From Plantactinospora sp. BC1 (GTDB lineage: Bacteria; Actinomycetota; Actinomycetes; Mycobacteriales; Micromonosporaceae): a DNA stretch of 64,000 nucleotides. Below, piece after piece: positions 20,112 through 39,701 of the stretch. Both the position numbers and the translations under genes were made by a program. The notes below the pieces were generated by a model. That model had not been told where the DNA came from. It made no database searches and saw only the letters and a list, made by a program, of their open reading frames with translations. Where the stretch lies: NCBI RefSeq assembly GCF_003030345.1, contig NZ_CP028158.1, positions 1 through 64,000 of the forward strand, given 5' to 3'. Within the stretch, counting starts at the first letter, position 1. Each line of letters begins with the position of its first letter.

Positions 20112-20141
20112 TTTTACGTATGAGGATGTGAGCGCTAACTT
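20112..20141. promoter_or_regulatory. Adjacent GntR-type and LacI-type operator candidates
   Basis: TTTTACGTATGA (20112-20123) matches the TCATACGTATGA palindrome in 10 of 12 positions. Three bases further on, GTGAGCGCTAAC (20128-20139) is a LacI-family palindrome with a central GCGC; the 15-base TGTGAGCGCTAACTT is matched, inverted, at the xylanase promoter (14 of 15). The 12-mer ACGTATGAGGAT (20116-20127) also recurs at 39690-39701. Both sites lie 65-90 bp before the esterase ATG. Confidence 0.6.
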
Positions 20142-20203
20142 CAACACCCTCGGGCGTACGCGTCCGTTCTGCTCGCCTGCGCCCCGACCGAAGGAGCGGA
20201 ATC

Positions 20204-21586
20204 ATGAAGGCCACCGGTGCGGCTCGTCCCGCCTCTGCTCAGAGACATCGCTGGCGGTCAGGGCTGGCCGTCGCGGCGGCGGCGGTCGTCGCGGCCGGCA
20301 CGCTGGTGGCGGTGACCGTCGCGCCCGCGTCGGCGGCGACGGTGGACACCAACGCCTGGTACGTCCTGGTGAACAGGAACAGCGGCAAGGCGCTGGACCT
20401 GTACGCCTCGGCCACCAACGACGGCGCCCGGATCAGCCAGTGGACCCGGAACAACGGCGCGAACCAGCAGTGGCAGTTCGTGGACTCGGGCGGCGGCTAC
20501 TACCGACTGAAGTCCCGACACTCCGGCAAGGTGCTCGACGTGCACAACCGGTCGACCGCCGACGGCGGCGCTATCGTGCAGTGGTCCGACCTCAACGCGA
20601 CGAACCAGCAGTTCCGGCTCGCCGACTCCGACTCCGGACACCTGCGGTTGATCAGCCGGCACAGCGGCAAGGTCGTCGAGGTGCAGGGTGCGTCCTCGGC
20701 GAACGGCGGGAACGTCGTGCAGTACTCCGACTGGAACGGCACGAACCAGCAGTGGCAACTCGCCCGGGTCGACGGCGGCAACCCGCCGACGGGTGGCACC
20801 GGCTGCGGCAGGGCCCCGACGCTGTCCAGCGGCACGCACACGATCCAGAGCAACGGCAAGAGCCGCTCCTTCATCCTGCGGATCCCGGCCAACTACAACA
20901 ACACCAACCCGTACCGGTTGATCTTCGCCTTCCACTGGCGGGGTGGCACCATGCAGGAGATCTCCTCGGGCGGCACCAGCGGGGCGGCCTGGTCCTACTA
21001 CGGCCAGCAGGAGCAGTCGAACAACAGCGCGATCCTGGTCGCGCCGCAGGGGCTCGGCAACGGCTGGGGCAATTCCGGCGGCGAGGACGTGACCTTCGTC
21101 GACGACATGATCCAGCGAATCGAGGGTGATCTCTGCGTCAACCCGAGGCAGCGCTTCGCCCTCGGTTTCAGTTGGGGCGGCGGGATGAGCTATGCGCTCG
21201 CCTGCGCGCGGGCGACCGTGTTCCGGGCCGTCGCGGTCATCGCCGGGGCCCAGATCAGCGGATGTGGCGGCGGTACGCAGCCGATCGCGTACTTCGGGTT
21301 GCACGGCATCTCGGACAACGTCCTCAACATCTCGCAGGGCCGGTCGCTGCGGGACACGTTCGTCCGCAACAACGGTTGCACCGCCCAGAGTCCGCCGGAG
21401 CCGGGGGCGGGCAGCCGGACGCACGTCACCACGAGCTACTCGGGCTGTCGGTCCGGCTACCCGGTGCAGTGGGCCGCGTTCGACAACGGTCACATGCCCG
21501 GGCCGGTGGACGGGAGCTACGCCGAGAGCGGGATCACCACCTGGACCAAGGGTGAGATCTGGCGGTTCTTCGCGCAGTTCTCCTGA
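20204..21586 (+). CDS. Secreted esterase: N-terminal ricin-type lectin (CBM13) plus CE1 domain
   Basis: A 460-residue secreted enzyme. After the signal peptide (ends near ASAA) three ricin B-type repeats occupy about residues 46-195 ([31 protein letters not shown]-type QxW motifs). The rest is a CE1 feruloyl-esterase-like domain: CGRAPTLSSGTHTIQSNGK, FAFHWRGGTM, nucleophile FSWGGGMS, HGISDNV and FDNGHMPGP. The catalytic domain is very like that at 5895-7223, but that one carries a C-terminal CBM2 instead; the lectin is very like that of the GH10 xylanase at 32796. It probably removes feruloyl or acetyl groups from wall polysaccharides. Two operator types lie upstream. Confidence 0.86.
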   Translation: MKATGAARPASAQRHRWRSGLAVAAAAVVAAGTLVAVTVAPASAATVDTNAWYVLVNRNSGKALDLYASATNDGARISQWTRNNGANQQWQFVDSGGGYYRLKSRHSGKVLDVHNRSTADGGAIVQWSDLNATNQQFRLADSDSGHLRLISRHSGKVVEVQGASSANGGNVVQYSDWNGTNQQWQLARVDGGNPPTGGTGCGRAPTLSSGTHTIQSNGKSRSFILRIPANYNNTNPYRLIFAFHWRGGTMQEISSGGTSGAAWSYYGQQEQSNNSAILVAPQGLGNGWGNSGGEDVTFVDDMIQRIEGDLCVNPRQRFALGFSWGGGMSYALACARATVFRAVAVIAGAQISGCGGGTQPIAYFGLHGISDNVLNISQGRSLRDTFVRNNGCTAQSPPEPGAGSRTHVTTSYSGCRSGYPVQWAAFDNGHMPGPVDGSYAESGITTWTKGEIWRFFAQFS

Positions 21587-21676
21587 GACAGGTCGGACGA
21601 TCGGACGGGCGGGTTCGTGGCGAGCAGGGGTGCCGGCACCCGTTGTGGGCCAGGAGCCCGTCCTTCCGGCGGTATG

Positions 21677-22447
21677 TCACCGCTGGAGACGACTGGGGCT
21701 GGCCGTTCCGCTGCGGCGGACGAGCCAGGCCTCGGTGATGTGGGTGAACATCGCCTCCGCGGCGCCGTCCGGATCGTGGGCGGCGATGCGTTCGTGGATG
21801 CGCCGGTGCCCCCGGTTGGACGCCACGCACAGCGACCGTTCGGTCCGGCCCATGTACCGGGCCGTGTTGACGACCTGACTCTCCAGCGCCCGTACGACAC
21901 CGCGGGCGATGCGGTTGCCGGACGCCTGCATGATCGTGTCGTGGAAGGCGCGGTCGTGCTCGTGATAGGCGACGGTGTCGTCGACGAGTTCGTCCATCCG
22001 CTTGACCAGCGCGCCCAACCGCTCGATCGTCTCCTGGTCGGCCAGCCGGGCGGCGACGTTCGCCATGTCGGACTCCAGCACCCGGCGGGTGACGACGAGG
22101 TCGTCGAGGATGGCGAGGCTGTCGTCCTCGGCGATGGTGGCCGCGAGTACGAGTTCGTCGAGCATGTCCCATGACGACTGCGGGGTGACCATGGTGCCGG
22201 CGCCCTGGCGGACCTGCACCAACCCCTTCTCCTGAAGGATCTTGACCGCCTCCCGGACGACGGTCCGGCTCACGGAGAAGGTCTCGCAGAGCACCGGCTC
22301 GGGCGGAAGCGACGTCCCGGACGGGTGCGTTCCCCGGACGATCCGCTCCACCAGTTCAGCGGTGACGGCCCGGGCGAGGTTGGCCGGTCGGCGTGCCCAG
22401 GCCGGGGGCGCTGAAGCATTCAAGGCGGTTTCCTGCGATGGCGTCAT
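21677..22447 (-). CDS. GntR-family (FadR/FCD) transcriptional regulator
   Basis: A 256-residue regulator. The N-terminal winged helix holds LVERIVRGTHPSGTSLPPEP and VSRTVVREAVKILQEKGLVQ, followed by an all-helical FCD domain with metal-ligand-like histidines (YHEHDRAFHDTIMQASGN and NRGHRRIHERI). FCD members sense sugar acids, aldonates or uronates. GGAGGGGGAC precedes the ATG at 22447. It diverges from the sugar importer operon, and the intervening promoter contains CATCATACGA, a half of the palindrome found before the beta-helix gene, so it is the likely local repressor. Confidence 0.86.
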   Translation of the reverse strand: MTPSQETALNASAPPAWARRPANLARAVTAELVERIVRGTHPSGTSLPPEPVLCETFSVSRTVVREAVKILQEKGLVQVRQGAGTMVTPQSSWDMLDELVLAATIAEDDSLAILDDLVVTRRVLESDMANVAARLADQETIERLGALVKRMDELVDDTVAYHEHDRAFHDTIMQASGNRIARGVVRALESQVVNTARYMGRTERSLCVASNRGHRRIHERIAAHDPDGAAEAMFTHITEAWLVRRSGTASPSRLQR

Positions 22448-22513
22448 GTCCCCCTCCGGGTGGCCCACCGCGCCGGTAGCCCGGTGCCCGAGCGCCAGTG
22501 TACGGGTGGACCG

Positions 22514-22542
22514 TTGACGACAGACATCATACGAGTTACGTT
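22514..22542 (+). promoter_or_regulatory. Importer operon promoter with embedded GntR-type site
   Basis: TTGACG (22514-22519), a 17-bp spacer and TACGTT (22537-22542) make a good promoter 65 bases before the binding-protein ATG. TCATACGAGTTA (22527-22538), a variant of TCATACGTATGA, occupies the spacer and touches the -10, the position expected for repression. Confidence 0.65.
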
Positions 22543-22606
22543 TCCGCGCAAAGATGATGCCTGGACGGTCGGTGCGCCGACCACCCAACTTCAAAGGGTG
22601 ACAACG

Positions 22607-23872
22607 ATGAAACAACGAGCAAAGTGGTCGGCCGTCCTCGTTGTGGGACTGGCGCTGGCCGGCTGTGGAAGTGCCACCGGCTCGGACTCCTCGCCGGGCG
22701 GTTCGGAGGGCAAACTCGTGGTGTGGGACTGGAAGTCCGGTGAGCCCTCCGCCGCACCCTACATCGAGAAGGCGAAGGCGGAATTCGCGAAGAAGCATCC
22801 GGGCGTGACGGTCGAGTTCGTCGCCCAGCCCTTCGACCAGTACTACACGCTGCTCGGTGCGGCGATCCAGTCCGGCAAGGGTCCGGACGTCATCCTGTTC
22901 AACGGGGGCGGTCAGATTCGTGACCGGGTGGACGCGCTGGTGCCGCTGGACGAGTACGTCGCCGAGGACAGGCAGCGGCTGGCCGGCTGGGAGGCGTTCA
23001 CCGCAGAAGGCAGGATCTACGCGGGTCCGGTCACGCTCCAGGGCCACCCCATCTACTACAACAAGGCGCTCTACCGGAAGGCCGGGTTGGATCCGGCGAG
23101 CCCGGCCACCACATGGAGCGAGTTCGTCGCCGACTGCGCCGCCATCGCCAAGGCCGGTGCCAAGTGCTTCGCCCTCGGCAACAAGGAGGGTGTCGGGATC
23201 CAGTTCTGGCTGTCGGGGCTGGCGTCGGGCATCCTCACCGCCCAGGAGTACGACAACTGGATCGCCGGCAAGCGCGACTGGAGCTCGGCGAACGTCAAGC
23301 GGGTCTTCCAACTCTGGAAGGAGGCCGGCGACGCGGGTCTGAACAACGACGGGGCCAACTCGACCGCGATGTTCAACGACTCCTTCGCGCTCTTCCAGTC
23401 CGGCAAGGCCGCCCATGTGATCGGGCTGATGTCGGACGTGGGGCACTGGAAGGACTTCACCGAGTTCCTGACGACCGACGAACTCGGTGTCATGGACGCT
23501 CCGGTCGTCACCGCCGGGACCACCCCGAGCCTGCCCTACGACGGCGGTATCGGTTACGGGGTCGCCCGGTGGACCAAGGACCCGAAGGTGGCCGCCGACC
23601 TGGTACGGGCGCTGACCTCGACCGACGCGCTGAAGGCCTTCTACGCCGACGCCGGCGCGATCGCCGCCGACACCACGATCGACGTGTCGCAGGGCGGTCC
23701 GGCGGTCGCCACGATCGTCTCCGAGCTCAAGGGCGGCAAGCCGGCCCTACACGTGGCGCTCTCCTCGAGGACGCTGGATCTGATGGGTCGGCTCTCCCAG
23801 CAGTTGCTCAGTGGCTCGATCACCGTCGACGAGGTGGTGAAGCAGCTGGCCGCTTCCGACCAGGCGGGTTGA
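22607..23872 (+). CDS. Sugar ABC transporter, substrate-binding lipoprotein
   Basis: A 421-residue family 1 extracellular solute-binding protein. The signal peptide ends at the lipobox LALAGC (Cys20). The mature part starts LVVWDWKSGEPSAAPYIEKA and contains GPDVILFNGGG and GHPIYYNKALYRKAGLDP, typical of oligosaccharide binders. It delivers a sugar or oligosaccharide to the two permeases that follow. Given its divergence from a GntR regulator and linkage to sugar-acid enzymes, a pectin-derived saccharide is a reasonable guess. ATG preceded by AAAGGG. Confidence 0.87.
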   Translation: MKQRAKWSAVLVVGLALAGCGSATGSDSSPGGSEGKLVVWDWKSGEPSAAPYIEKAKAEFAKKHPGVTVEFVAQPFDQYYTLLGAAIQSGKGPDVILFNGGGQIRDRVDALVPLDEYVAEDRQRLAGWEAFTAEGRIYAGPVTLQGHPIYYNKALYRKAGLDPASPATTWSEFVADCAAIAKAGAKCFALGNKEGVGIQFWLSGLASGILTAQEYDNWIAGKRDWSSANVKRVFQLWKEAGDAGLNNDGANSTAMFNDSFALFQSGKAAHVIGLMSDVGHWKDFTEFLTTDELGVMDAPVVTAGTTPSLPYDGGIGYGVARWTKDPKVAADLVRALTSTDALKAFYADAGAIAADTTIDVSQGGPAVATIVSELKGGKPALHVALSSRTLDLMGRLSQQLLSGSITVDEVVKQLAASDQAG

Positions 23873-23877
23873 ACCCC

Positions 23878-24852
23878 GTGCCGATCGGAGATGTGCAGCC
23901 GTCCGTCCGACCGGCCCGCGCCGGTCGGACCGACGGGGCCGCGGGGTCCGCCATCCGCCGTCCCAGCGCCCGATCCCGGCGCACCGGCGTACGGGCCGAG
24001 CGCTTCGCCCCGTACGTCCTGGTGGCCCCGGCAGTCCTGATCATCGTGCTGCTGCGGCTCTACCCGCTGCTGCTCGGGGTCAACTTCTCCTTCACCGGCG
24101 ACGGTGAGCGGAACGGGGTGGCGGTCGGCCTCGACAACTACCTGGAGCTGTTCCGCGATCCGCTGTTCCGGACCGCGCTGGGCAACGTGGGGCTGCTGGT
24201 GCTGCTGCTTCCGGTGGCGGTGGCGATCCCCGGCCTGCTCGCGACGTTCATCTACCTCCGGGTGCCCGGTCACCGGCTCTACCGCGGCGTCTACTTCTTC
24301 CCCGCGGTGCTCTCGCCGGTCATCGTCGGCGCGATCTTCAACCTTCTGCTCGCCTTCGACGGCCCGCTCAACGCCGTTCTCGGGTCGGTCGGCGTCGGTC
24401 CGGTGGACTGGCTCGGGGACCCGGACGTCGCGATGTTCGTGGTGGTCGGCGTGCATGTCTGGGCGACCTTCGGAATGGCCCTGGTGGTGTTCCTCGCCGG
24501 GTTCGCCACCCTGGACGCCGCGCTGCTGGACGCGGCCCGGGTGGACGGGGCGTCGCTACCTCAGGTGATCTGGCACGTGATCGTCCCAGCGCTGTCGCGC
24601 ACCATCCAGTTCGTCTTCGTGACCACGATGATCGGGATGCTGACCTCCATGTTCGGCCTGCTCTACGTCATGACGAACGGTGGTCCCGAGGGGTCGACGT
24701 ACCTGCCGGAGTACTACATCTGGATCCAGCAGGGACAGCTGAGCCGCCCGGCCCTGGCGTCGGCCGCGTCGACGGTGCTCTTCGTGATCATGCTCGTCGT
24801 CGGGTTACTCCAGATCACGCTGCTCAGGCGGGCGGGGAGGGAAGACCGATGA
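23878..24852 (+). CDS. Sugar ABC transporter permease 1 (MalF-like)
   Basis: A 324-residue membrane protein of the binding-protein-dependent transport family, with about six hydrophobic segments and the EAA loop LDAALLDAARVDGASLPQVI. A charged, Arg-rich N-terminal extension of about 50 residues precedes the first membrane segment. Start is uncertain: GTG at 23878, six bases after the upstream stop, or GTG at 23893. It overlaps the second permease as ATGA. Confidence 0.85.
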   Translation: MPIGDVQPSVRPARAGRTDGAAGSAIRRPSARSRRTGVRAERFAPYVLVAPAVLIIVLLRLYPLLLGVNFSFTGDGERNGVAVGLDNYLELFRDPLFRTALGNVGLLVLLLPVAVAIPGLLATFIYLRVPGHRLYRGVYFFPAVLSPVIVGAIFNLLLAFDGPLNAVLGSVGVGPVDWLGDPDVAMFVVVGVHVWATFGMALVVFLAGFATLDAALLDAARVDGASLPQVIWHVIVPALSRTIQFVFVTTMIGMLTSMFGLLYVMTNGGPEGSTYLPEYYIWIQQGQLSRPALASAASTVLFVIMLVVGLLQITLLRRAGREDR

Positions 24853-25676
24853 CTCGGATCCGTCTGGGCCGGTGGCTGGTCGTCATCCCGATGGCGCTGC
24901 TCGCGCTCGCGACGATCTACCCCCTGCTCTTCACCGCCAACGTCGCGATGAAGACCCGGCGTGACTACATCCTCGACCGGTTCTCCCTGACCGACGCCCT
25001 GCGCTGGGAGAACATCGGCACGGCGTGGAGCAGCGTCGGCATGGGCCGGTACTTCGTCAACTCCCTGCTCGTGGTGACGTCGTCGGTGGTCCTGCTGCTG
25101 CTCTTCGGCTCGATGGCCGGTTTCGCCCTGAGCCGGTTGCGGTTCCGGGGTTCGAGGGCGCTCTTCCTCGGCTGCCTCGCGGGACTCTTCGTGCCATTCC
25201 AGGTGATCATGGTGCCGCTCGCCCGGATCATGGCGGACAACGGTCTCATCGACACCTACCCCGGGCTGATCCTCGTCTACGTGGCCCAGTTCCTGCCCTT
25301 CACCGTCTTCCTGATGACGAGCTACTACCGAGCCATCCCGACCGAGATCATCGACGCGGCCCGCATCGACGGCAACAGCGTCTACGGGGTGTACCGCCGG
25401 ATCATGCTGCCGTTGGGCAGTCCGGCGTTGCTGTCGGTCGGCATCCTCGACGCCCTGTTCTGCTGGAACGACGTCCTCATGTCGCTGGTGATGATGCCCT
25501 CGGCCGACCACCGCACCCTCATGGTCGGCGTGACCTCGTTGCGGGGCCAGTACTCCGACGACATCCCCACCTTCGCCTCCGGGGTCCTGATAGCCGCTCT
25601 TCCCGTCCTGGTGGTCTACCTGTTCCTCCAGCGCCAGATCGCCGACGGCGTCGCCGCCGGTTCCACGAAGGGCTGA
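24849..25676 (+). CDS. Sugar ABC transporter permease 2 (MalG-like)
   Basis: A 275-residue permease with about six membrane segments and the EAA loop IPTEIIDAARIDGNSVYGVY. Its ATG overlaps the first permease stop (ATGA). No ATPase gene accompanies the set; actinobacterial sugar importers of this type commonly use a shared MsiK-like ATPase encoded elsewhere. Confidence 0.87.
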   Translation: MTRIRLGRWLVVIPMALLALATIYPLLFTANVAMKTRRDYILDRFSLTDALRWENIGTAWSSVGMGRYFVNSLLVVTSSVVLLLLFGSMAGFALSRLRFRGSRALFLGCLAGLFVPFQVIMVPLARIMADNGLIDTYPGLILVYVAQFLPFTVFLMTSYYRAIPTEIIDAARIDGNSVYGVYRRIMLPLGSPALLSVGILDALFCWNDVLMSLVMMPSADHRTLMVGVTSLRGQYSDDIPTFASGVLIAALPVLVVYLFLQRQIADGVAAGSTKG

Positions 25677-25677
25677 C

Positions 25678-26901
25678 ATGCGGATCACTGGATATCGGAC
25701 ACTCACCACGGTGCAGGAATGGGGACGGCCCGTCGGTGACGCCAACGGTGTCTTCGCCGACGGGGTGGTTCCGGTGTCGGTCGTCATCGTCGAGACCGAC
25801 GAGGGCATCTCGGGGGTCGGCATCGGGCCGCACGTGGAGATCGAGCGGATCTTCGCGGCCATCGACGGCGAAGACCCGCGCGCCGTGACGACCCTCTACG
25901 ACCGCATGCTGCGGCACACCTTCAAGGCGGGGCACGCCGGCCCGGTGTTCGGCACCATCGGCGCACTCGACACCGCGCTGTGGGACATCAAGGCACAGGC
26001 GGCCGGCGAGCCACTGTGGCGGTTGTTGGGCGGACGCGACCGCCGGGTCCCCGCCTACGCATCCGGCCTGGACATCGGGCTGTCCGACGACGAACTCGTC
26101 TCGACCTACGAGGTCTACGCCCGGTACGGTCTGCGGGCCGCCAAGCTCAAGGGCGGCCTCGACATCGAGCGCGACCGGCATCGCCTCTGCCTGGTCAGGG
26201 ACGTACTGACCGAGGCCGGGCACGGGTTGCGGCCGGGCCTGATGCTCGACGTGAACGAGGCATGGACCCGCAAGCAGGCCGTCCGACACGTCTGCGAACT
26301 CGAACGCACCCTCGACCTCATCTGGATCGAGGAGCCGGTCCGGCGCTGGGACGCCGAGGGTCTCGCCACCGTCGGTCGGGGAATCCGCGCGTCGGTCGCG
26401 ACCGGGGAGAATCTCACCGGACTGGAGCAGTACCGGCCACTGATCGCCGCCGGTGCCGTCGACATCCTGCAGATGGCCGCCGTCTGGGGGGTCACCCATT
26501 TCCTGCGGGCATCCGCCCTGGCCCACGGTCATGACCTGCCGGTCAGCCCGATCGGTAACAGCCCGGTCGGGCTGCTGCACGCCGCGACCTCGGTGCCGAA
26601 CCACCTGACCAGCGAGTTGCAGGACCTGACGCCACCGGTCGGCATCTCCGTCGACATGCACGTCGAGGACGGTGCCTTCGTGCTCGGTGACTCGCCCGGT
26701 CTGGGAGTCCGGGTCGACGAGGACCGGATCCGGGCGACCACCCAGCACCCGCAGGCGCAGACCTCCGAGGGCCCCAACGTCCGGCCGGAGCGGGCCGGCC
26801 GGCGACTGCTGGCCGGGGTCGACGGCGTCGCTCCGGTACGGCGGTTCTCCGGCGCACCGCTGCACTCCCACAACGACGTGTCGCCCACCGCACGCCATTG
26901 A
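25678..26901 (+). CDS. Mandelate-racemase/enolase-superfamily sugar-acid dehydratase
   Basis: A 407-residue enolase-superfamily protein. Metal ligands are visible in MLDVNEAW (Asp), WIEEPV (Glu) and TGENL (Glu), and the KxK base motif in RAAKLKGG. The family dehydrates aldonates (galactonate, rhamnonate, fuconate) to 2-keto-3-deoxy acids. Oddly, the His-Asp dyad of mandelate-racemase members is not seen: the regions where Asp and His are expected read ILQMAAVWGVT and PVSPIGNSPVG. The last 45 or so residues after VDEDRIRA look unlike the family and may be an extension past an eroded stop. It begins one base after the permease stop. Confidence 0.8.
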   Translation: MRITGYRTLTTVQEWGRPVGDANGVFADGVVPVSVVIVETDEGISGVGIGPHVEIERIFAAIDGEDPRAVTTLYDRMLRHTFKAGHAGPVFGTIGALDTALWDIKAQAAGEPLWRLLGGRDRRVPAYASGLDIGLSDDELVSTYEVYARYGLRAAKLKGGLDIERDRHRLCLVRDVLTEAGHGLRPGLMLDVNEAWTRKQAVRHVCELERTLDLIWIEEPVRRWDAEGLATVGRGIRASVATGENLTGLEQYRPLIAAGAVDILQMAAVWGVTHFLRASALAHGHDLPVSPIGNSPVGLLHAATSVPNHLTSELQDLTPPVGISVDMHVEDGAFVLGDSPGLGVRVDEDRIRATTQHPQAQTSEGPNVRPERAGRRLLAGVDGVAPVRRFSGAPLHSHNDVSPTARH

Positions 26902-27091: not shown

Positions 27092-28117
27092 ATGAAGGCA
27101 GTCGTCTACCGGGGGGCGCGGCACCTCGGGGTCGAGGAACGTGACCCGGAACCACCCGGTCCCGGTCAGCTGCGGATCGCGGTGGCCTACACCGGGATCT
27201 GCGGCACCGACCTGCACATCTACCACGGGGACATGGATGCCCGGGTCGGCGCCTCGGCGATCATCGGGCACGAGATGTCCGGTCGGATCGCGGCCGTCGG
27301 GGCGGAGGTCACCGGCTGGTCCGTCGGCCAGGCCGTCACCGTGATGCCGACCCGGTCGTGCGGCGAGTGCGCCGCCTGCCGGCGCGGCAACTCCCACGTC
27401 TGCCACGCCATGGACTTCCTCGGCATCGACTCACCGGGCGCCATGCAGTCGTCCTGGAACGTCCCGGCGGACCTGGTCCTGCCGCTCCCCGACGACCTGC
27501 CGCTCGACCACGCGGCGCTCGTCGAACCGGTCGCGGTCGCGGTGCACGACGTCCGGCGGGGAAACGTGACCGCCGACGACCAGGTGGTCGTGATCGGGGG
27601 CGGGCCGATCGGGGTTCTCATCGCCACGGTCGCGAAGGGCCGCGGCGCACGGGTGCTCCTCGTCGAGCCGGACCCGTTCCGGCGGGCCGCCGTGGGCGGG
27701 ATGGGGATCGAGGCCCTCGACCCCGGGACGGCCGACGTGGTGACGCTGGTGAACGACCGCACCGACGGCGCGGGTGCCGACGTCGCGTTCGAGGTCTCCG
27801 GCTCAGCGGCCGGCGTCGCCACCGCGGTCGACGTGCTGACCACCCGCGGCCGGCTGGTGATGGTGGCGATCCACCCCCGGCCCCGGGAGGTCAACCTGCA
27901 CCGGTTCTTCTGGCGCGAACTGGAGCTGCTCGGCGCCCGCCTGTACCAGCGGGACGACATGGCGGAGGCGATCCGGTTGGTCGCGTCCGGCGCGATCCCG
28001 GTCGGGCAACTTATCTCCCGGGTCGAGCCCGTCGAAGCAGTGCATGCCGCGTTCTCGGCCTTGGAGGGCGGCGGCGTGCTGAAGGTACTGCTCGACTGGC
28101 GGGAGGACGACCGGTGA
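27092..28117 (+). CDS. Zinc-dependent medium-chain alcohol/polyol dehydrogenase
   Basis: A 341-residue MDR enzyme. Catalytic zinc ligands are C37 (ICGTDLH) and H60-E61 (GHEMSG); the structural zinc site is the four-Cys lobe in SCGECAACRRGNSHVC; the NAD(P) site is VVVIGGGPIGVLIA. It oxidises a sugar alcohol, aldonate or related hydroxyl, most like threonine/sorbitol/galactonate dehydrogenases. GGAGG precedes the ATG. A 190-bp gap with no recognisable gene separates it from the dehydratase; its stop overlaps the next start as GTGA. Confidence 0.86.
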   Translation: MKAVVYRGARHLGVEERDPEPPGPGQLRIAVAYTGICGTDLHIYHGDMDARVGASAIIGHEMSGRIAAVGAEVTGWSVGQAVTVMPTRSCGECAACRRGNSHVCHAMDFLGIDSPGAMQSSWNVPADLVLPLPDDLPLDHAALVEPVAVAVHDVRRGNVTADDQVVVIGGGPIGVLIATVAKGRGARVLLVEPDPFRRAAVGGMGIEALDPGTADVVTLVNDRTDGAGADVAFEVSGSAAGVATAVDVLTTRGRLVMVAIHPRPREVNLHRFFWRELELLGARLYQRDDMAEAIRLVASGAIPVGQLISRVEPVEAVHAAFSALEGGGVLKVLLDWREDDR

Positions 28118-28875
28118 CCGACCTGTTCGACCTCTCCGGCCGGACCGCGGTGGTGACCGGCGCCCGGCGTGGCATCGGCCTGGCCATGGCCGAGGCCCTG
28201 GCCGTGGCCGGTGCCGACGTCGTCGGCGTCTCCGCCGAGTTGGAACCGGTCGGAAGCGAGGTGGAACACCGGGTACACGCCGCCGGCCGCCGGTTCACCG
28301 CGCTGCGGGCCGACCTCGCCGACCGGGCCGCCGTGCACCGGTTGGCCCGGGACCTCACCGCGCTCGGGCCGATCGACATTCTGGTGAACAACGGCGGCAC
28401 GATCGCCCGTACCCCGGCCGCCGAGCACCCCGACGAGATGTGGGACCACGTCATCGAGGTGAACCTGAGCAGCCAGTTCGTGCTGAGCCGGGAGATCGGC
28501 CGGACCATGGTCGAACGCGGCCGAGGGAAGGTCATCTTCACCGCGTCGCTACTGAGTTTCCAGGGCGGCATCACCGTGCCTGGTTACGCCGCGTCGAAGG
28601 CCGGCCTGGCCGGGCTGACCAAGGCGCTGGCGAACGAGTGGGCATCCCGTGGGGTGAACGTCAACGCCATCGCACCCGGTTACATCGCCACCGACAACAC
28701 CCGGGCGTTGCGCGACGACCCCGATCGCGACCGGGCCATCCTCGCCCGCATCCCGGCGGGCCGGTGGGGCCGTGCCGACGACATCGGCGGCGCCACGGTG
28801 TTCCTGGCATCGGCGGCGTCGGACTACGTCAACGGGATCGTGCTGCCCGTCGACGGAGGCTGGCTGGGCCGATGA
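28114..28875 (+). CDS. SDR oxidoreductase, KduD-like
   Basis: A 253-residue SDR, the same length as typical KduD (2-dehydro-3-deoxy-D-gluconate dehydrogenase). The cofactor motif TGARRGIGLAMAEAL, NNGG, and catalytic Ser/Tyr/Lys (FTASLLSFQGG, GYAASKAG) are present, and it ends with the common DGGWLGR. KduD interconverts keto-deoxy sugar acids made from pectin lyase products, which fits the locus, but gluconate-5-dehydrogenase-like activity is equally possible. GTG start overlaps the dehydrogenase stop; its stop overlaps an ATG that opens an eroded amidohydrolase frame. Confidence 0.83.
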   Translation: MTDLFDLSGRTAVVTGARRGIGLAMAEALAVAGADVVGVSAELEPVGSEVEHRVHAAGRRFTALRADLADRAAVHRLARDLTALGPIDILVNNGGTIARTPAAEHPDEMWDHVIEVNLSSQFVLSREIGRTMVERGRGKVIFTASLLSFQGGITVPGYAASKAGLAGLTKALANEWASRGVNVNAIAPGYIATDNTRALRDDPDRDRAILARIPAGRWGRADDIGGATVFLASAASDYVNGIVLPVDGGWLGR

Positions 28876-28965
28876 CGGGCAAGCAGGCGCCCGGACGCCC
28901 CCCAGGGTCGTCGACGCGCACCACCATCTCCGGGTCCGGGCACGGCGTCCGCAGCCCTGGGCGAC
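28872..28965 (+). pseudogene. 5' remnant of an amidohydrolase (sugar lactonase type)
   Basis: The ATG at 28872 overlaps the SDR stop (ATGA) as an intact gene would, but the recognisable start of a COG3618-type amidohydrolase, VVDAHHHLRVR followed by PQPW, is in another frame. A frameshift in or near the run of C around 28902 is the simplest reason. The sequence ceases to resemble the family after PQPW. Such enzymes hydrolyse sugar lactones (fucono- or rhamnonolactone), which would suit the dehydrogenase-dehydratase set. Confidence 0.6.
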
Positions 28966-29104
28966 CCGGCGGCCGTAGCGGCCCGCTCGCGGCGCCGCCC
29001 GGCCAGGGTGGCCGGACCGCCCTGGGCGGCCGACGTCCCCGTCGGGACCGGCGCCGTTGTCCCGGACACCGGTCCCGACCGGACCGTCACCGGCCGCTCG
29101 GGCA

Positions 29105-29392
29105 GCCGCGGTCGGCGCCACGCCAGGGTGAACCGCCACTGCTGGTTGGTGCTGTTCTGGCAGGTCCACTGCAACAGCCGGGCGCCGTCGGCGGTGGCGG
29201 CGCCGTTGACGCCTCGCAGTGCCCGCTGAGCACGCTTTTCACCGTGTACACCCCGGACGTCCCGGTCGGGGTGGCGGTGAACGTCTGCTGGCTGCCGTTG
29301 TTGCAGGTGGCCTGCTGGAGGAAGGCCCTGGCGCGGTGGAGCCGGCGGTCACCTCGACACACTTGCCGCTGTGAACATCGAGGAGGCCGACC
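29105..29392 (-). pseudogene. Fragment of a ricin-type lectin domain, frameshifted
   Basis: Read on the minus strand, three frames in turn give VHSGKCVEVTAGSTAPG, then LQQATCNNGSQQTFTATPTG with SGVYTVKSVLSGHC, then VNGAATADGARLLQWTCQNS and NQQWRFTLAW. Together they form about 90 residues of a ricin B/CBM13 repeat broken by at least two frameshifts (near 29333 and 29218). It has no start and no attached catalytic domain. Confidence 0.6.
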
Positions 29393-29665
29393 CGTACTCC
29401 GCGCTCGCCCTGGCCGGCTCGTACATCAAGCATGTGCAGGTCAGCGGCACCAACCGAGGTGCTCCCGGTGCGGACCATCTCGACTGGCCCCGCTTCTTCG
29501 CCGCGTTGGACGCCACCGGTTACCGGGGCGCCGGTCTGCATCGAGTCGTTCACCGCCGCGAACGAGACCATCACCACCGCCGCGTCGATCTGGCGTCCGC
29601 TCGCCCCGTCACAGGATCGGCTGGCCCAGGACGGATTGACCTGTCTCCGGCGGATCCTCCCCTGA
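29355..29665 (+). pseudogene. 3' remnant of a sugar epimerase/isomerase (TIM-barrel, AP-endonuclease-2 family)
   Basis: NIEEADPYSALALAGSYIKH, then HVQVSGTNRGAPGADHLDWP and FFAALDATGYRGA, match the C-terminal third of xylose-isomerase-like sugar epimerases. After an apparent extra base near 29533 the match resumes in another frame as VCIESFTAANETITTAASIW and ends at a TGA (29663-29665). The N-terminal two thirds are missing, replaced by the lectin fragment on the other strand. Confidence 0.65.
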
Positions 29666-32357
<2,692 letters not shown>

Positions 32358-32632: not shown

Positions 32633-32701
32633 ATGTTAGCGTTCTCCTAGGCTACGTGATTACCGTCCTAAGCTGGTGCCGCTCGCATGTTAGCGCTCAC
32701 A
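32633..32701. promoter_or_regulatory. Two LacI-type operator candidates upstream of the xylanase
   Basis: ATGTTAGCGCTCACA (32687-32701) is the inverted form of the site at 20127-20141 (14 of 15 positions). A degenerate copy sharing ATGTTAGCG lies at 32633-32641, 54 bp upstream (about five helical turns), which could allow looping. The xylanase ATG is 95 bases downstream. The remainder of 32358-32795 shows no gene. Confidence 0.6.
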
Positions 32702-32792: not shown

Positions 32793-34280
<1,488 letters not shown>

Positions 34281-34381
34281 GCGGTGCGGCCAGACGGGCA
34301 CATGGCCGGCAAGCCTCGCAGCCCGTACGGCAACTCCGGTAGCCGACCTGCACCGGGCAGAGCCGGGGCGCGGTCTCCAGG

Positions 34382-34468
34382 CACGGCGGCAGCGGCATCA
34401 ACGCCGACATGTCGCTGCCGCCGTGACCTGGGAGGGCCGGCGCGGAGAGGGCAAGCTCCGCGCCGGCC
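34382..34468. terminator. Two consecutive perfect stem-loops between xylanase and GH43 genes
   Basis: CACGGCGGCAGCG (34382-34394) pairs with CGCTGCCGCCGTG (34413-34425), and GGCCGGCGCGGAG (34435-34447) with CTCCGCGCCGGCC (34456-34468); both are perfect 13-bp stems with 18- and 8-base loops. They begin 100 bases after the xylanase stop and end 66 bases before the GH43 ATG, so tandem termination isolating the two genes is likely. Confidence 0.75.
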
Positions 34469-34534
34469 CGGTCGGCTACCACCTCATGCGAACTGATTGT
34501 TCTCAATGCGATCGTCAGCCCCGAGGAGATGAGA

Positions 34535-35920
34535 ATGAGGTCGGAAACTTCTATCCGTGCGGCGGGTAGCCGCGGCGTGGCCCTGATGTCCGCGCTGCTG
34601 TGTCTCGCGGTGCTGCTGCCGGGACCGGCCCGGGCGGACAACCCCATCGTGCAGACCATCTACACGGCCGATCCGGCCCCGCTGGTGCACGACGGCCGGG
34701 TGTACCTCTACACCGGTCACGACGAGGACGGCTCAACCTACTTCACCATGCGCGAGTGGCGGGTCTGGTCCTCGGCCGACATGGTGAACTGGACCGACCA
34801 CGGCTCTCCGATGAGCCTGGCCACCTTCAGCTGGGCCAGCGCCGACGCGTGGGCCGGGCACACCATCTTCCGCAACGGCAAGTTCTACTGGTACGTGCCG
34901 GTCAAGAACCGGGCGACCGGCCGGATGGCCATCGGGGTCGGTGTGTCGGAGAGTCCCACCGGACCGTTCCGGGACGCGCTCGGTCGTCCACTCGTGGAGA
35001 ACGGGGAGATCGACCCGGCCGCCTTCATCGACGACAACGGGCAGGCGTACCTGTACTGGGGCAACCCCAATCTCTGGTACGTGCGGTTGAACGCCGACAT
35101 GATCTCGTTCTCCGGCGGTGCGACGCAGATCCCGCTGACCGCGGCGGGATTCGGGGCCCGTAGCGGCAACACGAGCCGGCCGACCCTCTACGAAGAGGCG
35201 CCCTGGGTCTACAAGCGGAACGGACTGTACTACAACGTGTTCGCGGCGGAATGCTGCTCGGAGTTCATCGGTTACTCGACGGCCCCCGGGCCGACCGGGC
35301 CGTGGACCTACCGTGGCACGGTCATGCCCCGGCAGGGCGGCAGTTTCACCAACCACGCCGGCGTCATCGACTACAACGGCGGCTCGTACTTCTTCTACCA
35401 CAACGGTGCCCTGCCCGGCGGCGGCGGATTCACCCGATCCGTGGCGGTGGAGAAGTTCAACTACAACGCCGACGGCACGATCCCGACGATCAACATGACC
35501 ACGACGGGCGCTCCGCAGGTCGGCACCCTGAACCCCTATGTCCGGCAGGAGGCCGAGACGATCGCCTGGGCGACCGGTGTGGAGACCGAGCCGGCCAGCG
35601 GAGGGGGCATGAACGTCGGCTGGATCGAGAACGCGGACTGGATCAAGGTCAAGGGCGTGGCCTTCGGTGCCGGCGCCGGCTCCTTCAGTGCCCGAGTGGC
35701 CTCGGGGACCAGCGGTGGCCGCATCGAGGTGCGGCTGGGTGGCGCCAACGGCACCCTCGTGGGCACCTGCACCGTGCCGGGTAGCGGGGGCTGGCAGACC
35801 TGGACGACCGTCACCTGCCCGGTAAGCGGCGCCGCCGGCACCCACGACCTGTACCTGCGGTTCGCCGGCGGCAGCGGTTACCTGCTCAACGTCGACTGGT
35901 GGCAGTTCCAGCCACGGTAG
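34535..35920 (+). CDS. Secreted GH43 glycosidase with C-terminal CBM6
   Basis: A 461-residue secreted enzyme. Signal peptide ends near PARA. The five-bladed propeller of GH43 is shown by YTADPAPLVHDGRVYLYTG (catalytic base Asp), GEIDPAAFIDDNGQAYLYWG (pKa-modulating Asp) and YEEAPWVYKRNGLYY (acid Glu). The C-terminal 130 residues (RQEAETIAWATGVETEP to NVDWWQFQ) are a CBM6 that binds xylan or arabinan. Likely an alpha-L-arabinofuranosidase or beta-xylosidase removing side chains. The second ATG (34535) is preferred because the GGAG lies six bases upstream of it; the first ATG (34529) touches the SD. Confidence 0.88.
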   Translation: MRSETSIRAAGSRGVALMSALLCLAVLLPGPARADNPIVQTIYTADPAPLVHDGRVYLYTGHDEDGSTYFTMREWRVWSSADMVNWTDHGSPMSLATFSWASADAWAGHTIFRNGKFYWYVPVKNRATGRMAIGVGVSESPTGPFRDALGRPLVENGEIDPAAFIDDNGQAYLYWGNPNLWYVRLNADMISFSGGATQIPLTAAGFGARSGNTSRPTLYEEAPWVYKRNGLYYNVFAAECCSEFIGYSTAPGPTGPWTYRGTVMPRQGGSFTNHAGVIDYNGGSYFFYHNGALPGGGGFTRSVAVEKFNYNADGTIPTINMTTTGAPQVGTLNPYVRQEAETIAWATGVETEPASGGGMNVGWIENADWIKVKGVAFGAGAGSFSARVASGTSGGRIEVRLGGANGTLVGTCTVPGSGGWQTWTTVTCPVSGAAGTHDLYLRFAGGSGYLLNVDWWQFQPR

Positions 35921-36325
35921 TGAGTTGGCGCCGACCACGGCAGCGCGGACGACAACAACCTTACCCGTACCGTGGCGGCTGGGGAGGTCGTCGTCGCCGC
36001 AGCCACGGCGGCTGCGGCAGGACGAGATCCCACGGCCGGCCCACGGCGGGCCAGGTTACCGGGTCCGCAGGGCCCCGATCAGTACCGGCACCCCGAGGAG
36101 CAACGGCATCGTGGCCACCCCGAGCGCTGCCAGGGTGGCGAGCGTGGCGAGTATCGCCATCCCGAGCGCCACGTCACCGATGAGGTGCGCCAGCGCCCGC
36201 CACGGCCACGCCGACCGCACGAGCCGCAGCGGCGGCGCATCGCCGTTGACTGGTACCGCGCTGAGGCGGTCGCTGTGCTCGCGGCGCAGGCCGCGAAGTG
36301 ACCGGGGCCCCCGAGACGGCGCGCG
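35921..36325. other. Convergent intergenic region holding a gene fragment
   Basis: Between the GH43 gene and the minus-strand importer the only coding-like signal is the membrane-protein fragment at 36056-36262. No strong terminator hairpin is obvious. Confidence 0.4.
36056..36262 (-). pseudogene. C-terminal fragment of a membrane (sensor-domain-like) protein
   Basis: The minus strand reads SAWPWRALAHLIGDVALGMA, then ILATLATLAALGVATMPLLL and GVPVLIGALRTR before a TAA (36056-36058). The alternation of hydrophobic helices and short basic end resembles the N-terminal sensor membrane domain found with actinobacterial histidine kinases. There is no start codon or complete domain, so it looks like a relic. 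Confidence 0.4.
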
Positions 36326-37204
36326 TCAGCCTTTGAACGCACCTTCCATGATCCCCTGCACCAGGCGTCGCCCGACAAAGACGAAGAGCACCAACAGTGG
36401 CAGCGTGGCCAGGAACGAGCCCGACATGGCCAGGCCCAGGTCGATGTCCCGGCTGTTCTGCAGCGCCTTGATGGCGATCTGCACGGTGTACCGCTCCGGG
36501 GACTTCAACACGATGAACGGCCACAGGAAGTCGTTCCAGGCGTTGACGAACCCGAACAGTCCCAGGACGAATGCCGCCGGGCGGACCAGCGGGAACACGA
36601 TGCGCCAGAAGATCTGCCAGGTCGTCGCGCCGTCCACCCGGGCGGCGTGCAACAGGTCGTCGTCGATGGTGCCGCTCATGTGCTGGCGCATCCAGAAGAT
36701 GCCGAAGGCGCTCACCAGCCCGGGGACGATCAGGGCCTGCAAGGTGTCCACCCAGCCAAGCTCCGACATGATGAGGTACTGCGGAATGACCGCCAGTTGG
36801 GCCGGCACGGTCATCGTCAGCACGACGATGAGGAACAGCGTGTTGCGGCCCGGGAAATGCAGCTTGGCGAAGGCGAAGCCGGCGAGCGCGCAGAGCACCG
36901 CCTGGCCCACGCCGATCGTGGTGGAGACGACAAGGCTGTTGACGAGTGCCTGGACGAACGGCACGGTGTCGAAGACCAGGTTCGCCAGGTACAGGAAGTT
37001 GCCGCCGGGCAGGACGTGCGGTGGGAGGCTCGTCGCGGTGGCGGAGTCTGTCGTGGACACCACGAACATCCAGTAGAGCGGGAACGCGCTGAAGAACACC
37101 ATGGCGCCGAGCACCGCGTACACGATGAACGGGACCTGGTTGACACGGCGTCGGCGGCGCGGTGCCCGCCCGGTGGTCGACGAGGACGCGGGTGCGAGAT
37201 TCAT
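36326..37204 (-). CDS. Sugar ABC transporter permease 2 (MalG-like)
   Basis: A 292-residue permease with about six membrane segments and the EAA loop TIDDDLLHAARVDGATTWQI. The ATG at 37204 overlaps the stop of the first permease (ATGA). Together with the genes at 37201 and 38228 it forms a second carbohydrate importer, again without its own ATPase. Confidence 0.88.
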   Translation of the reverse strand: MNLAPASSSTTGRAPRRRRRVNQVPFIVYAVLGAMVFFSAFPLYWMFVVSTTDSATATSLPPHVLPGGNFLYLANLVFDTVPFVQALVNSLVVSTTIGVGQAVLCALAGFAFAKLHFPGRNTLFLIVVLTMTVPAQLAVIPQYLIMSELGWVDTLQALIVPGLVSAFGIFWMRQHMSGTIDDDLLHAARVDGATTWQIFWRIVFPLVRPAAFVLGLFGFVNAWNDFLWPFIVLKSPERYTVQIAIKALQNSRDIDLGLAMSGSFLATLPLLVLFVFVGRRLVQGIMEGAFKG

Positions 37205-38172
37205 GGACGCTCCGAGCGGATCCGGGTGACCAGCAGGTAGTTGATCGCAGCGACGATCACGACCATGACGAAGAGCGCGACGGCGACGGCGGATCCGTAG
37301 CCGAAGTGGAACCGGCCGAATCCCTGCTCGTAGAGGAAGAGGGTGAGGGTCTGGCACTGCCGTGCCGCTCCGCAGGTAAGTCCACCCACCGGGTTGACCA
37401 GCAGTGGCTCGGTGAAGGTCTGTAGCCCGCCGATCGTCGACGTGACGACGGTGAATACGATGATCGGCCGCAGGGCTGGGATGGTGATGTGCCGGAACTG
37501 CTGCCAGCCGTTGGCGCCGTCCACCGCGGCGGCCTCGAACAGCTCGCGGGGTACGGCCTGGAGCGAGGCGAGATACAGCAAGGTGTTGTAGCCGGTCCAC
37601 CGCCAGGCGACCATCGCGGCGATCATGAGGTGGCTGCCCCACACCGACGCCGTGAAGTCGACGTGCTCGAAGCCCAGCAGTTCGAGGAACCAGTTGAGCA
37701 TGCCGTAGTCGCGGTCGAAGAGTTGGGCGAAGACGATGGTCGTCGCCGCCACCGAGGTGATGTAGGGGACAAGCACCGACATCCGGAACAACGTGGCCGC
37801 CCGCAGCCGTACGTGGTTGAGCAGGTGCGCCACGCCGAGCGCAAGCAGCAACTGCGGAACCGTCGACAGCACCCAGATGCTGAACGTGTTGCGCATCGCG
37901 CCCCAGAACCGGGGGTCGTCACCGAGCTGGGCGAAGTTGGCCAGCCCCACAAAATGCCGCTCGCCGATGGGGTCCCAGTCGAACAGGGCGACGTAGAACG
38001 TGAACAGCAGCGGGAGGAGGCCGAAGACGAAGAAGAGTAGGAAGAACGGCGCCACATAGGCGTAGGGCGCCAGTCGCTCGCGCAAGCCCTGCTGGACATG
38101 CCGATACCGGGTGGGCCCTGGAGTGGCCTCCGTGGCCGTGGCCGGGCTGAGCGTGGTGGTCACTGCGGTCAC
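37201..38172 (-). CDS. Sugar ABC transporter permease 1 (MalF-like)
   Basis: A 323-residue permease with about six membrane segments and the EAA loop PRELFEAAAVDGANGWQQF. The long insert GGLTCGAARQCQ before the last segments is seen in lactose/cellobiose-type permeases. GTG at 38172 is used; a GTG at 38163 has a better spaced AAGG and may be the true start. A 12-bp hairpin separates it from the binding-protein gene. Confidence 0.87.
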   Translation of the reverse strand: MTAVTTTLSPATATEATPGPTRYRHVQQGLRERLAPYAYVAPFFLLFFVFGLLPLLFTFYVALFDWDPIGERHFVGLANFAQLGDDPRFWGAMRNTFSIWVLSTVPQLLLALGVAHLLNHVRLRAATLFRMSVLVPYITSVAATTIVFAQLFDRDYGMLNWFLELLGFEHVDFTASVWGSHLMIAAMVAWRWTGYNTLLYLASLQAVPRELFEAAAVDGANGWQQFRHITIPALRPIIVFTVVTSTIGGLQTFTEPLLVNPVGGLTCGAARQCQTLTLFLYEQGFGRFHFGYGSAVAVALFVMVVIVAAINYLLVTRIRSERP

Positions 38173-38183
38173 CTTCCCGACGA

Positions 38184-38212
38184 GCGGCGGTCGGCTCGGT
38201 GCCGACCGCCGC
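38184..38212 (-). terminator. Intra-operon stem-loop between binding protein and permeases
   Basis: GCGGCGGTCGGC (38184-38195) pairs perfectly with GCCGACCGCCGC (38201-38212) around a 5-base loop, in the 55-bp gap after the binding-protein stop. It ends 12 bases before the permease start, suggesting attenuation or mRNA 3'-end protection that keeps the binding protein more abundant than the permeases. Confidence 0.68.
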
Positions 38213-38227
38213 GCACCAGTCGTCCGT

Positions 38228-39487
38228 TCAGCCGCGGAGGGCGTTCTTGACGTTGGTCAGCGCGGTGTTCCACGCGTTGGCCGGGTCGACCTTGCCCTGC
38301 TCGACGCTGGTGAGCGTGTTGAGCAGTTCGGATCCGATGGTGGCGTCGTCGGGGCCGATATAGAACGGTTTGATGTTCACGACGGACTCGGTGTAGATCT
38401 TGCCGATCGGCGCGTTGGAGAAGAACGGGTCCGTCTTGCCGACGAGCTGCGCGTCCGAGTAGACGGACGGCGTCGTGGGCAGGGACCCCTGCGACACGAA
38501 GTGCGCGAGCTGGCCGGCCGGTGACTGCATCTCGGTGATGTAGGCCCACGCCGCCTTCGGGTTCTTCGCCCGCTTGGGGATGGCGAGATAGCTACCACCC
38601 CAGTTGCCCGAGCCACCGGGGATGGTGGCGATATCCCACTTGCCGGCGGTATCGGGCGCATTGGTGCGGATGGAGGTGAGCATCCACGACGGTGCGGACA
38701 CGACGGCGAAGTCACCCTTGCTCATGCCGGCGGTCCACCCGGTCGAGAACGAACTCTGCTTGGCGGAGATGCCGGTGGCGAAGACCTTCAGTGTCAGATC
38801 GAAGGCGGCCTTGACCTGCGGATTTCGATCGTACGACAGCTCGTGGGTCGCATCGTAGTAGCGCTCTGTTCCCTGGTTGACCGCCTGGAAGAAGATGCTC
38901 GTCGGCGTGTTGTCCAGGAACGGCTTGCCGGTCTTCTGGACGTACTGCCTGCCGACCTCCGCGAACGCGTCCCAGGTCGGCCACAGCTTGGACACCTGGT
39001 CCCGGTCGGTGGGCAGACCGGCGGCCTCGAACAGGTCCTTACGGTACGCGATCGCCATGCCACCCACGTCCGTCGGTATCCCGACCACCTTGCCGTCCTC
39101 GGTCACCGACTGCTTCATCACCCAGTCGAGATAGTCACCCTTCATCTTGTCGGCGCCGAGCGTGGAAAGGTCCACGAAGTTTTCCGGGGACTGCATGAAC
39201 TTCGGCAGGTCGTCACCCTGGATCAGCACGAGGTCGGGCACCTTGCCGCCGGCCAGTGCCGCCGTGAGTGCCTGGGCCGTCTCGCTCGTGCTGCCCACCT
39301 CGGTGAGCTTGATGGGGACGTCGGGGTGTGCCTTCTGGTAGACCTCGACGTCGGCCTTCTGGTTGATCCCGGTGAACGACCAGAATTCGAATCCGGACGA
39401 GGAGTCGCTGTCCGAGCCTGGCGAACAGCCGGACGTCAGCAGCAGGGCTGCGGCGAAGACGGCTGTGGAGGTGATGGCGCGCTTCAC
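38228..39487 (-). CDS. Sugar ABC transporter, substrate-binding lipoprotein
   Basis: A 419-residue family 1 solute-binding protein. The lipobox is LLTSGC (Cys21 counting from the GTG at 39487). It contains FWSFTGINQKADVEVYQKAH, VPDLVLIQGDDLP, GMAIAYRKDLFEAAGLP and the late WAYITEMQSPAGQ. The GTG is preferred over an ATG at 39499 because GGAGGG sits just before it and no ribosome site precedes the ATG. It diverges from the rhamnogalacturonan lyase, so it may take up lyase products. Confidence 0.86.
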   Translation of the reverse strand: MKRAITSTAVFAAALLLTSGCSPGSDSDSSSGFEFWSFTGINQKADVEVYQKAHPDVPIKLTEVGSTSETAQALTAALAGGKVPDLVLIQGDDLPKFMQSPENFVDLSTLGADKMKGDYLDWVMKQSVTEDGKVVGIPTDVGGMAIAYRKDLFEAAGLPTDRDQVSKLWPTWDAFAEVGRQYVQKTGKPFLDNTPTSIFFQAVNQGTERYYDATHELSYDRNPQVKAAFDLTLKVFATGISAKQSSFSTGWTAGMSKGDFAVVSAPSWMLTSIRTNAPDTAGKWDIATIPGGSGNWGGSYLAIPKRAKNPKAAWAYITEMQSPAGQLAHFVSQGSLPTTPSVYSDAQLVGKTDPFFSNAPIGKIYTESVVNIKPFYIGPDDATIGSELLNTLTSVEQGKVDPANAWNTALTNVKNALRG

Positions 39488-39634
39488 AGGGCCCTCCATA
39501 CGGTGGGCGGTCCGGTGGTCCGGGCCGACCGCGATGAATCACGGCGAATCAGATGTCGACCGGTACACCGTGTGGCGGCGGGGATGGGTTTTTCCACCTG
39601 CGGCTCGGGTGCGAGCCACGGCCCAGTCGTCGTG

Positions 39635-39701
39635 GACTTCGCTGCGAAGTCGTATCGAAACGTCGAAAGGTATCTATCTAATACGTATGACGTATGAGGA
39701 T
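39635..39701. promoter_or_regulatory. Operator candidates between sugar importer and rhamnogalacturonan lyase
   Basis: TAATACGTATGA (39679-39690) matches TCATACGTATGA in 10 of 12 and is followed directly by a second CGTATGA (39691-39697). The 12-mer ACGTATGAGGAT (39690-39701) is the same as at 20116-20127. A separate perfect inverted repeat, GACTTCGC-T-GCGAAGTC, lies at 39635-39651. The 470-bp gap 39488-39957 otherwise holds no credible gene; the frame that extends the lyase upstream has no family similarity. Confidence 0.58.

Follow-up and report, generated by a model that had tools for sequence, protein, structure and literature searches.

The first 64 kb of the Plantactinospora sp. BC1 genome (hereafter the window, 0.77% of a complete single contig of 8,333,965 bases, or 8.33 Mb) contain a gene for a GntR/FCD regulator that lies divergent from an operon encoding a sugar ABC importer, with the binding protein SBP1, and sugar-acid enzymes. 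Around them lie genes for wall-degrading proteins and for a second importer, with the binding protein SBP2 (Table 1). A sequence-only reading of this DNA had proposed that variants of one palindrome precede these genes and that the GntR protein controls them together. All four variants are present. The site at 20112 lies 92 bp upstream of the start of the feruloyl-esterase-like gene (20204), the site at 22527 is enclosed by a promoter predicted from 22514 on (TTGACG-17-TACGTT) between gntR and the SBP1 gene, the site at 29767 lies ~195 bp upstream of the GH141-like gene (29964), which that reading called a beta-helix gene, and the site at 39679 lies between the SBP2 gene (start 39499, minus strand) and a gene for a PL11 lyase (~39958, plus strand). 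The repeats it had singled out were also confirmed as pairs unique in the window: ACGTATGAGGAT has no copy other than those at 20116 and 39690, and CATCATACGA none beyond 22525 and the inverted copy at 29771.

Table 1 Features of the window discussed in the text
Feature	Position	Strand	Basis and remarks
FCD operator CGTTTTACGTATGAGG, before feruloyl-esterase-like gene	20110..20125		matrix score 16.1
LacI-type palindrome TGTGAGCGCTAACT	20127..20140		starts 17 bp after FCD site start
Ricin-B + feruloyl-esterase-like protein, probably secreted	20204..21586	+	Pfam ricin-B; PDB 8jh8 feruloyl esterase, E 1e-72
GntR/FCD regulator	21677..22447	-	PF00392, PF07729
Operator CATCATACGAGTTACG in gntR/SBP1 divergon	22525..22540		score 23.8; between predicted TTGACG and TACGTT, spacing 17
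SBP1, sugar ABC importer binding protein	22607..23872	+	best PDB 3zkk, xylo-oligosaccharide-binding, E 1e-17
Two ABC permeases, second from 24849	23878..25676	+	PF00528; start of first uncertain
Acid-sugar dehydratase, mandelate-racemase (MR) group, enolase superfamily	25678..26901	+	PF13378/PF02746; 2pp0, E 1e-32
Zinc-type sugar (acid) dehydrogenase	27092..28117	+	PF08240/PF00107, NCBIfam
KduD-like short-chain dehydrogenase	28114..28875	+	TIGR01832, 333.4 bits, just below cut-off of 338.85
Frame-shifted N-terminal remnant, fuconolactonase-like amidohydrolase	28866..28960	+	two tblastn pieces in two frames, against intact relative
Operator CATCATTCGTATGATG, before beta-helix gene	29765..29780		score 25.0; aligns with sites of G092, G104, G113
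GH141-like + ricin-B protein (beta-helix)	29964..32357	+	PF21231; BT_1002 5mqp, E 7e-39
LacI-type palindrome TGTTAGCGCTCACA, before GH10 xylanase	32688-32701		
GH10	from 32796	+	
GH43	from 34529	+	
Second importer: SBP2 (38228-39499) + two permeases	36326..39499	-	Pfam
Tandem operator, 39677-39692 + 39684-39699	39677..39699		scores 16.8, 16.0; aligns with SBP2 orthologue promoters
PL11 lyase	~39958-43797	+	

The shared element is best defined from relatives. Matches to the GntR regulator at E 1e-60 or better were found in 73 of 200 family genomes, and the orthologue set comprises the best 80 of 180 confirmed named loci, drawn from many genera and closest in Plantactinospora (93-94% identity). 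One element dominates the upstream regions of these orthologues, TCATACGA being found in 72/80, and from this DNA we wrote by eye the 16-mer CGTMATWCGWATKACG and built a scoring matrix from 17 distinct orthologue sites. The palindrome as first proposed was slightly off: the conserved element spans 16 bp, and some of the sites are poor palindromes.

The four sites are real and exceed chance. The 16-mer at up to two mismatches occurs at five places in the genome, three of them in the window (the sites at 22527, 29767 and 39679; binomial p = 4.5e-6), and at up to three mismatches at 25 places, five in the window (p = 1.2e-6), compared with nine genomic places for the pattern written backwards. 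Two sites are dependent, as 22525 is orthologous to the sites from which the motif was made and 39684 overlaps 39677; p is 3.5e-4 (2/4) without the former and 7.1e-4 (3/23) without both. With the matrix, the five best scores in the window fall at 29765 (25.0), 22525 (23.8), 39677 (16.8), 20110 (16.1) and 39684 (16.0), the sixth (13.5) lies at 25304 within a permease gene, and the top score among 370 reversed 930-bp pieces is 9.4. TCATACGTATGA at up to one mismatch occurs in the whole genome at 29767 and 39679 only. The weakest site, at 20112, has three mismatches to the 16-mer, and its counterparts in 23 named loci score 15.6-18.6; the identity of the two 12-bp copies of ACGTATGAGGAT is in part coincidental, as CGTATGACG takes the place of the window's CGTATGAGG in 21 of 25 named esterase loci. 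Elsewhere in the genome, high scores at 302804, 5147132 and 3970138 were not counted as members; their positions are inside open frames, at frame edges or next to a gene for a PP2C-type phosphatase.

We put at roughly three in four the probability that these sites are operators at which the GntR/FCD protein encoded at 21677-22447 acts as a repressor, at the divergon and at the esterase-like, GH141-like and SBP2 promoters. The protein combines an N-terminal GntR helix-turn-helix (PF00392, 63.6 bits, cut-off 27) with a C-terminal FCD domain (PF07729, 85.5 bits, cut-off 24.3), and the closest NCBIfam model, the NanR subfamily NF003011, scores 125.2 bits, well under its cut-off of 260. The motif occurs at up to two mismatches in gntR's own divergent promoter in 74/80 named loci, a figure that measures conservation and is not an independent match because the consensus was drawn from the same loci; such an element is the usual sign of autoregulation. 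SBP1 is divergent from gntR in 71 of the 80, and in 57 of the 80 (58 counting one at spacing 16) TTGACN-17-TANNNT encloses the element. Because the element sits between -35 and -10, bound GntR would shut off transcription of the SBP1 gene and probably that of gntR too. At SBP2 the predicted promoter is TTGACG-17-TATCCT (39725-39697) and the tandem operator runs downstream from the last -10 bases; covering the -10 end and the start region, it would have the geometry of a repressor site. In our model, GntR would leave these promoters once its FCD domain has bound a pathway intermediate, either an acid or a lactone.

The 16-mer may be read as two overlapping FadR-type units, C-GT-N3-AC-G, 7 bp apart and sharing a central CG. 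GT-N3-AC operators with extra boxes 7-12 nt away are described as common in the FadR subfamily (PMC4494728). CGTATGACG is nearly invariant in the orthologues' gntR promoters, and in the relatives' divergon a further CGTNTGACG follows the element, is conserved and recalls the repeated operator of NanR, although it overlaps the -35. A test of heptad offsets was partly circular, because the 16-mer used to choose its sites already includes both units; at +/-14 the offsets were weak and share forced CG letters, and the third unit is kept only as conserved divergon sequence.

Control of genes outside the divergon was followed in 19 GntR-bearing genomes mapped site by site against the window genes and then orthologue by orthologue. 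Of the 25 named loci where the esterase is matched over nearly its full length, 23 have a site above 13 upstream of it; a site is also present in six of eight genomes with a full-length orthologue (at least 82% identity) and before two more full-length copies (78-79%). Five of seven genomes have a site at SBP2; in G092, G104 and G113 the SBP2 promoter can be aligned with the 39677 site and the sequence around it, and there the element follows immediately after TTGACG-17-TAnnCT. The beta-helix gene has a site above 13 in 9/18 regulator-bearing genomes, and the gene itself is matched in 18/19 GntR-positive vs 1/7 GntR-negative genomes. The exception among the latter, G009 (locus L279), has a comparable cluster with strong sites and a regulator of only 41% identity, and the operator may thus outlast divergence of the regulator. 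The sequence comparisons thereby support GntR acting on itself, the first importer/catabolic operon, the esterase-like gene, the beta-helix gene and the second importer. PL11, which the sequence-only reading had included, was found in only 3/26 genomes (E 1e-150), two of them carrying the regulator, and none of the three orthologues has a site; in G092 it lies on another contig, and G104 and G113 have no PL11 match at that threshold. Since the 39677 site aligns with SBP2 operators, the proposed regulon stands minus PL11, whose membership is not supported and which we regard as a neighbour.

The esterase leader (20140-20200) is ~160 bp shorter than in G092, G010 and G113, placing operator and start codon closer together. 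In genome G031, three operator-like places ~52-54 bp apart lie at 3024-3152 of locus L175, whose one scanned neighbour has no clear family.

High-scoring sites in relatives also occur at genes for a GH54-ricin arabinofuranosidase, GH127, GH10, GH27, GH29-family and ThuA-ricin proteins; at GH54, GH10, GH127 and ThuA the site coincides with the beginning of the longest frame or lies slightly within it, and the true starts there are unsure. The scan of site neighbours left out L186, L188 and L195. The wall-related neighbours are mostly arabinoxylan/hemicellulose side-chain enzymes, for which reason the earlier label of a pectin/rhamnogalacturonan regulon is doubtful and not supported, and a wall target in the feruloyl side chains of grass xylan is more likely than pectin.

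A second signal may converge on the esterase promoter. The LacI-type palindrome at 20127 belongs to a set of 23 places in the genome that match TGTTAGCGCTAACA at up to two mismatches (control, 5). A match at up to four mismatches is present in 14 of 25 named esterase promoters, a number set against 25/500 mononucleotide shuffles, and 13 of these have their best match at the 17-bp spacing, while the remaining promoter, at L058, has a second one readable there. At 12 palindrome loci 15 neighbouring frames were listed, and the ten that were scanned, from nine loci, comprise five GH43, one GH62, one AbfB, one L-arabinose isomerase, one FGGY kinase and one SBP-type binding protein. Given the 17-bp distance and these arabinose-gene neighbours, the esterase probably answers both the FCD regulator and a putative LacI-type arabinose regulator.

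The relatives suggest what the operon is for. In G104, G164 and G184 genes for a fuconolactonase-like amidohydrolase and an aldo-keto reductase (AKR) come after the KduD-like gene, the importer and dehydratase of G104 being on another contig, and G009 has both genes in its cluster in a different order; in some relatives the lactonase-like gene stands intact where the window has a remnant. The best solved relatives of the AKR are L-galactose dehydrogenases. At L073 gntR and the AKR gene diverge from intergenic DNA that contains a site of score 18.1, and G115 has a site near the start of the AKR frame. We infer that lactonase and AKR, together with the operon enzymes, form an oxidative route for an L-hexose: L-galactose would be oxidized to L-galactonolactone by the AKR, opened to L-galactonate by the lactonase and dehydrated by the MR-type dehydratase to 2-keto-3-deoxy-L-galactonate, which the zinc dehydrogenase would oxidize at C5 and the KduD-like enzyme convert to 2-keto-3-deoxygluconate (KDG). 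KduD makes KDG from 3-deoxy-D-glycero-hex-2,5-diulosonate (PMC6353982). On our stereochemical argument the dehydrogenase pair would invert carbon 5 to give KDG, which suits L-galactose and not the 6-deoxy sugar L-fucose. The FAXG side chains of grass heteroxylan, alpha-L-Gal-(1->2)-beta-D-Xyl-(1->2)-5-O-feruloyl-L-Ara, also with alpha-D-galactosyl and alpha-D-xylosyl extensions, are reported to contain L-galactose in this way (PMC4712305; also PMC4491172, PMC7176698). As feruloyl esterase, arabinofuranosidases, GH10, GH27 and an L-galactose route would be the tools for such a structure, we tentatively propose, at somewhat less than even odds, that these side chains feed an L-galactose-to-KDG pathway. 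Still more speculative is the composite picture of an actinobacterial L-galactose-to-KDG regulon spanning many genera, read through a doublet of overlapping GT-N3-AC units, with the esterase under joint FCD and LacI-type arabinose control and fully open only in the presence of both sugars.

Several observations weigh against these proposals. Perfect CGTNNNACG units occur in the window at 20110 and 39684 and not at 22525 or 29765, so that two of the four sites have none. The esterase gene is without a site in two of the eight genomes with a full-length orthologue, and only 2/19 shorter matches have one (a further shorter match, in G008, had no upstream DNA). The beta-helix gene has no usable site in 8/18 regulator-bearing genomes and a weak one (11.5) in another, and the two second copies for which upstream DNA exists lack one. 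At six site loci (L175, L179, L180, L181, L182 and L190), the one neighbour scanned at each belonged to no wall-related family. The 16-mer at up to two mismatches gives 78 places in GntR-positive genomes (control 14) and 60 in GntR-negative ones (control 16), 19 genomes each; when gntR-promoter sites, marked by hand, are removed, positive and negative genomes have 43/41 places at scores of at least 16, 32/20 at 18 and 18/5 at 20, with overlapping tandem sites counted twice and three places of G020 left out. Motif counts were rejected as a marker of regulator presence, being near-equal at two mismatches and only modestly separated at high scores. For the pathway, G113 has the AKR and no lactonase match in the stretch compared, G023 shows neither, and no L-galactosidase is proven. 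The scores of the enzymes fall under the curated equivalog cut-offs: beside the KduD-like protein (Table 1), the dehydratase scores 152.4 bits against the L-talarate/galactarate dehydratase model NF047820 (cut-off 500), and the relatives' lactonases 236.5 and 165.3 bits, and that of another locus in this genome 211.6, against the L-fucono-1,5-lactonase model NF052480 (cut-off 400). The window operon has neither an AKR gene nor an intact lactonase gene, only the short frame-shifted remnant, and the first steps must therefore come from elsewhere, unless the pathway is decaying. They are perhaps supplied by homologues at 242-244 kb of the host genome (lactonase 51% and AKR 58% identical to a relative's).

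The DNA at 28960-29660, which separates the KduD-like gene from the beta-helix operator, looks like further gene debris; on inspection it is reminiscent of a ricin-type piece in inverted orientation and of the terminal part of a TIM-barrel epimerase. An open reading frame at 28440-29639 matches no Pfam family. SBP2 is closest in the PDB to a cellobiose-type binding protein (8bfy, E 4e-74).

Other explanations differ in how much of this they accept. It is very improbable that the four sites merely resemble one another by chance, as AT-rich promoter DNA might in a genome that is GC-rich. The near-equal counts in genomes with and without the regulator speak for it, as does the 12-mer of the sequence-only reading at up to three mismatches, which we rejected as non-discriminating (six matches in the window against 5.5 expected, a number reached by 49 of 100 shuffles); against it stand the genome-wide concentration in the window, seen with the 16-mer and with TCATACGTATGA at one mismatch, the null scores and the recurrence upstream of orthologues. 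The sites might instead be real and belong to another GntR/FCD protein, the one encoded at 21677 being merely a target. A first look at the genome gave 68 GntR-like stretches, and G009 keeps similar sites with its diverged regulator; the presence of the element in the gntR promoter itself across many genera stands against this, and we consider it improbable, although less so than chance.

If the 21677 protein is the regulator, the question becomes which sugar it serves. A pectin or rhamnogalacturonan-I regulon that includes PL11, in which GntR senses a uronate breakdown product and the dehydratase and KduD-like enzyme process galacturonate-derived acids, would explain why PL11 adjoins the 39677 site, and BT_1002, the GH141 relative, which we take to be an enzyme of rhamnogalacturonan-II breakdown, counts in its favour. 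KduD is moreover a classic pectin-pathway enzyme (PMC6353982). PL11 orthologues have no site, however, and SBP2 keeps its site without PL11 nearby; no polygalacturonase or pectate lyase was seen among the relatives' site neighbours that were scanned, a part of all neighbours, and the lactonase in the relatives' operons implies oxidation of an aldose. We regard this possibility as unlikely. Somewhat better, if still doubtful, is a regulon for L-fucose, from fucosylated xyloglucan or similar, to which the GH29-family and GH141-like targets and the kinship of the lactonase with the L-fucono-1,5-lactonase family would point. Yet the operon shows no FAH-type hydrolase and pairs the zinc dehydrogenase with a KduD-like enzyme instead, and on our argument a 6-deoxy product could not become KDG. 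A separate host locus (L290, genome 234000-253900) fits that sugar, with genes for an FAH-type hydrolase, an MR-type dehydratase, an SBP, an AKR, a lactonase and a GntR-type regulator whose best models are LldR and NanR; its section at ~235-245 kb looks like an L-fucose route.

Among the hits listed from the open-licence literature we noticed no account of this regulon or of the operator CGTMATWCGWATKACG. If the L-galactose reading is true, actinobacterial genomes could be searched with the operator for L-galactosidases and related enzymes, GH141-like and GH29-like proteins would gain a testable substrate, a bacterial route for L-galactose would be supplied, and the esterase promoter would show how two sugar signals may join at one place.

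The proposed system resembles the FCD regulators of sugar acids DgoR, ExuR, UxuR and GntR (PMC4494728) in its GntR and FCD domains, the site in a divergent promoter and, if the doublet reading applies, a GT-N2/3-AC type of unit with extra boxes 7-12 nt away; it would differ in that its targets include wall-degrading enzymes besides a catabolic operon. The putative close-packed repeated units recall Escherichia coli NanR on its (GGTATA)3 direct repeats (PMC8012715), although unit and order differ here and no sialic acid genes were found among those scanned. The proposed purpose, use of L-galactose-bearing xylan, is shared with the complex-xylan locus of Bacteroides ovatus and its GH95 alpha-L-galactosidase (PMC4491172). 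Unlike that locus, ours shows no GH95 among the genes scanned (no genome-wide GH95 search was made), would use an intracellular oxidative route to KDG and is assumed to have a different type of regulator. Finally, the fungal L-galactonate pathway (PMC11219438) and the bacterial agar-derived L-KDGal pathway (PMC9706016) also pass through a dehydratase or cycloisomerase to 2-keto-3-deoxy-L-galactonate, and the bacterial enzyme belongs, like the dehydratase here, to the enolase superfamily. In contrast to both, the present route would start from what we take to be L-galactose and reach KDG by way of the zinc dehydrogenase and KduD-like pair.

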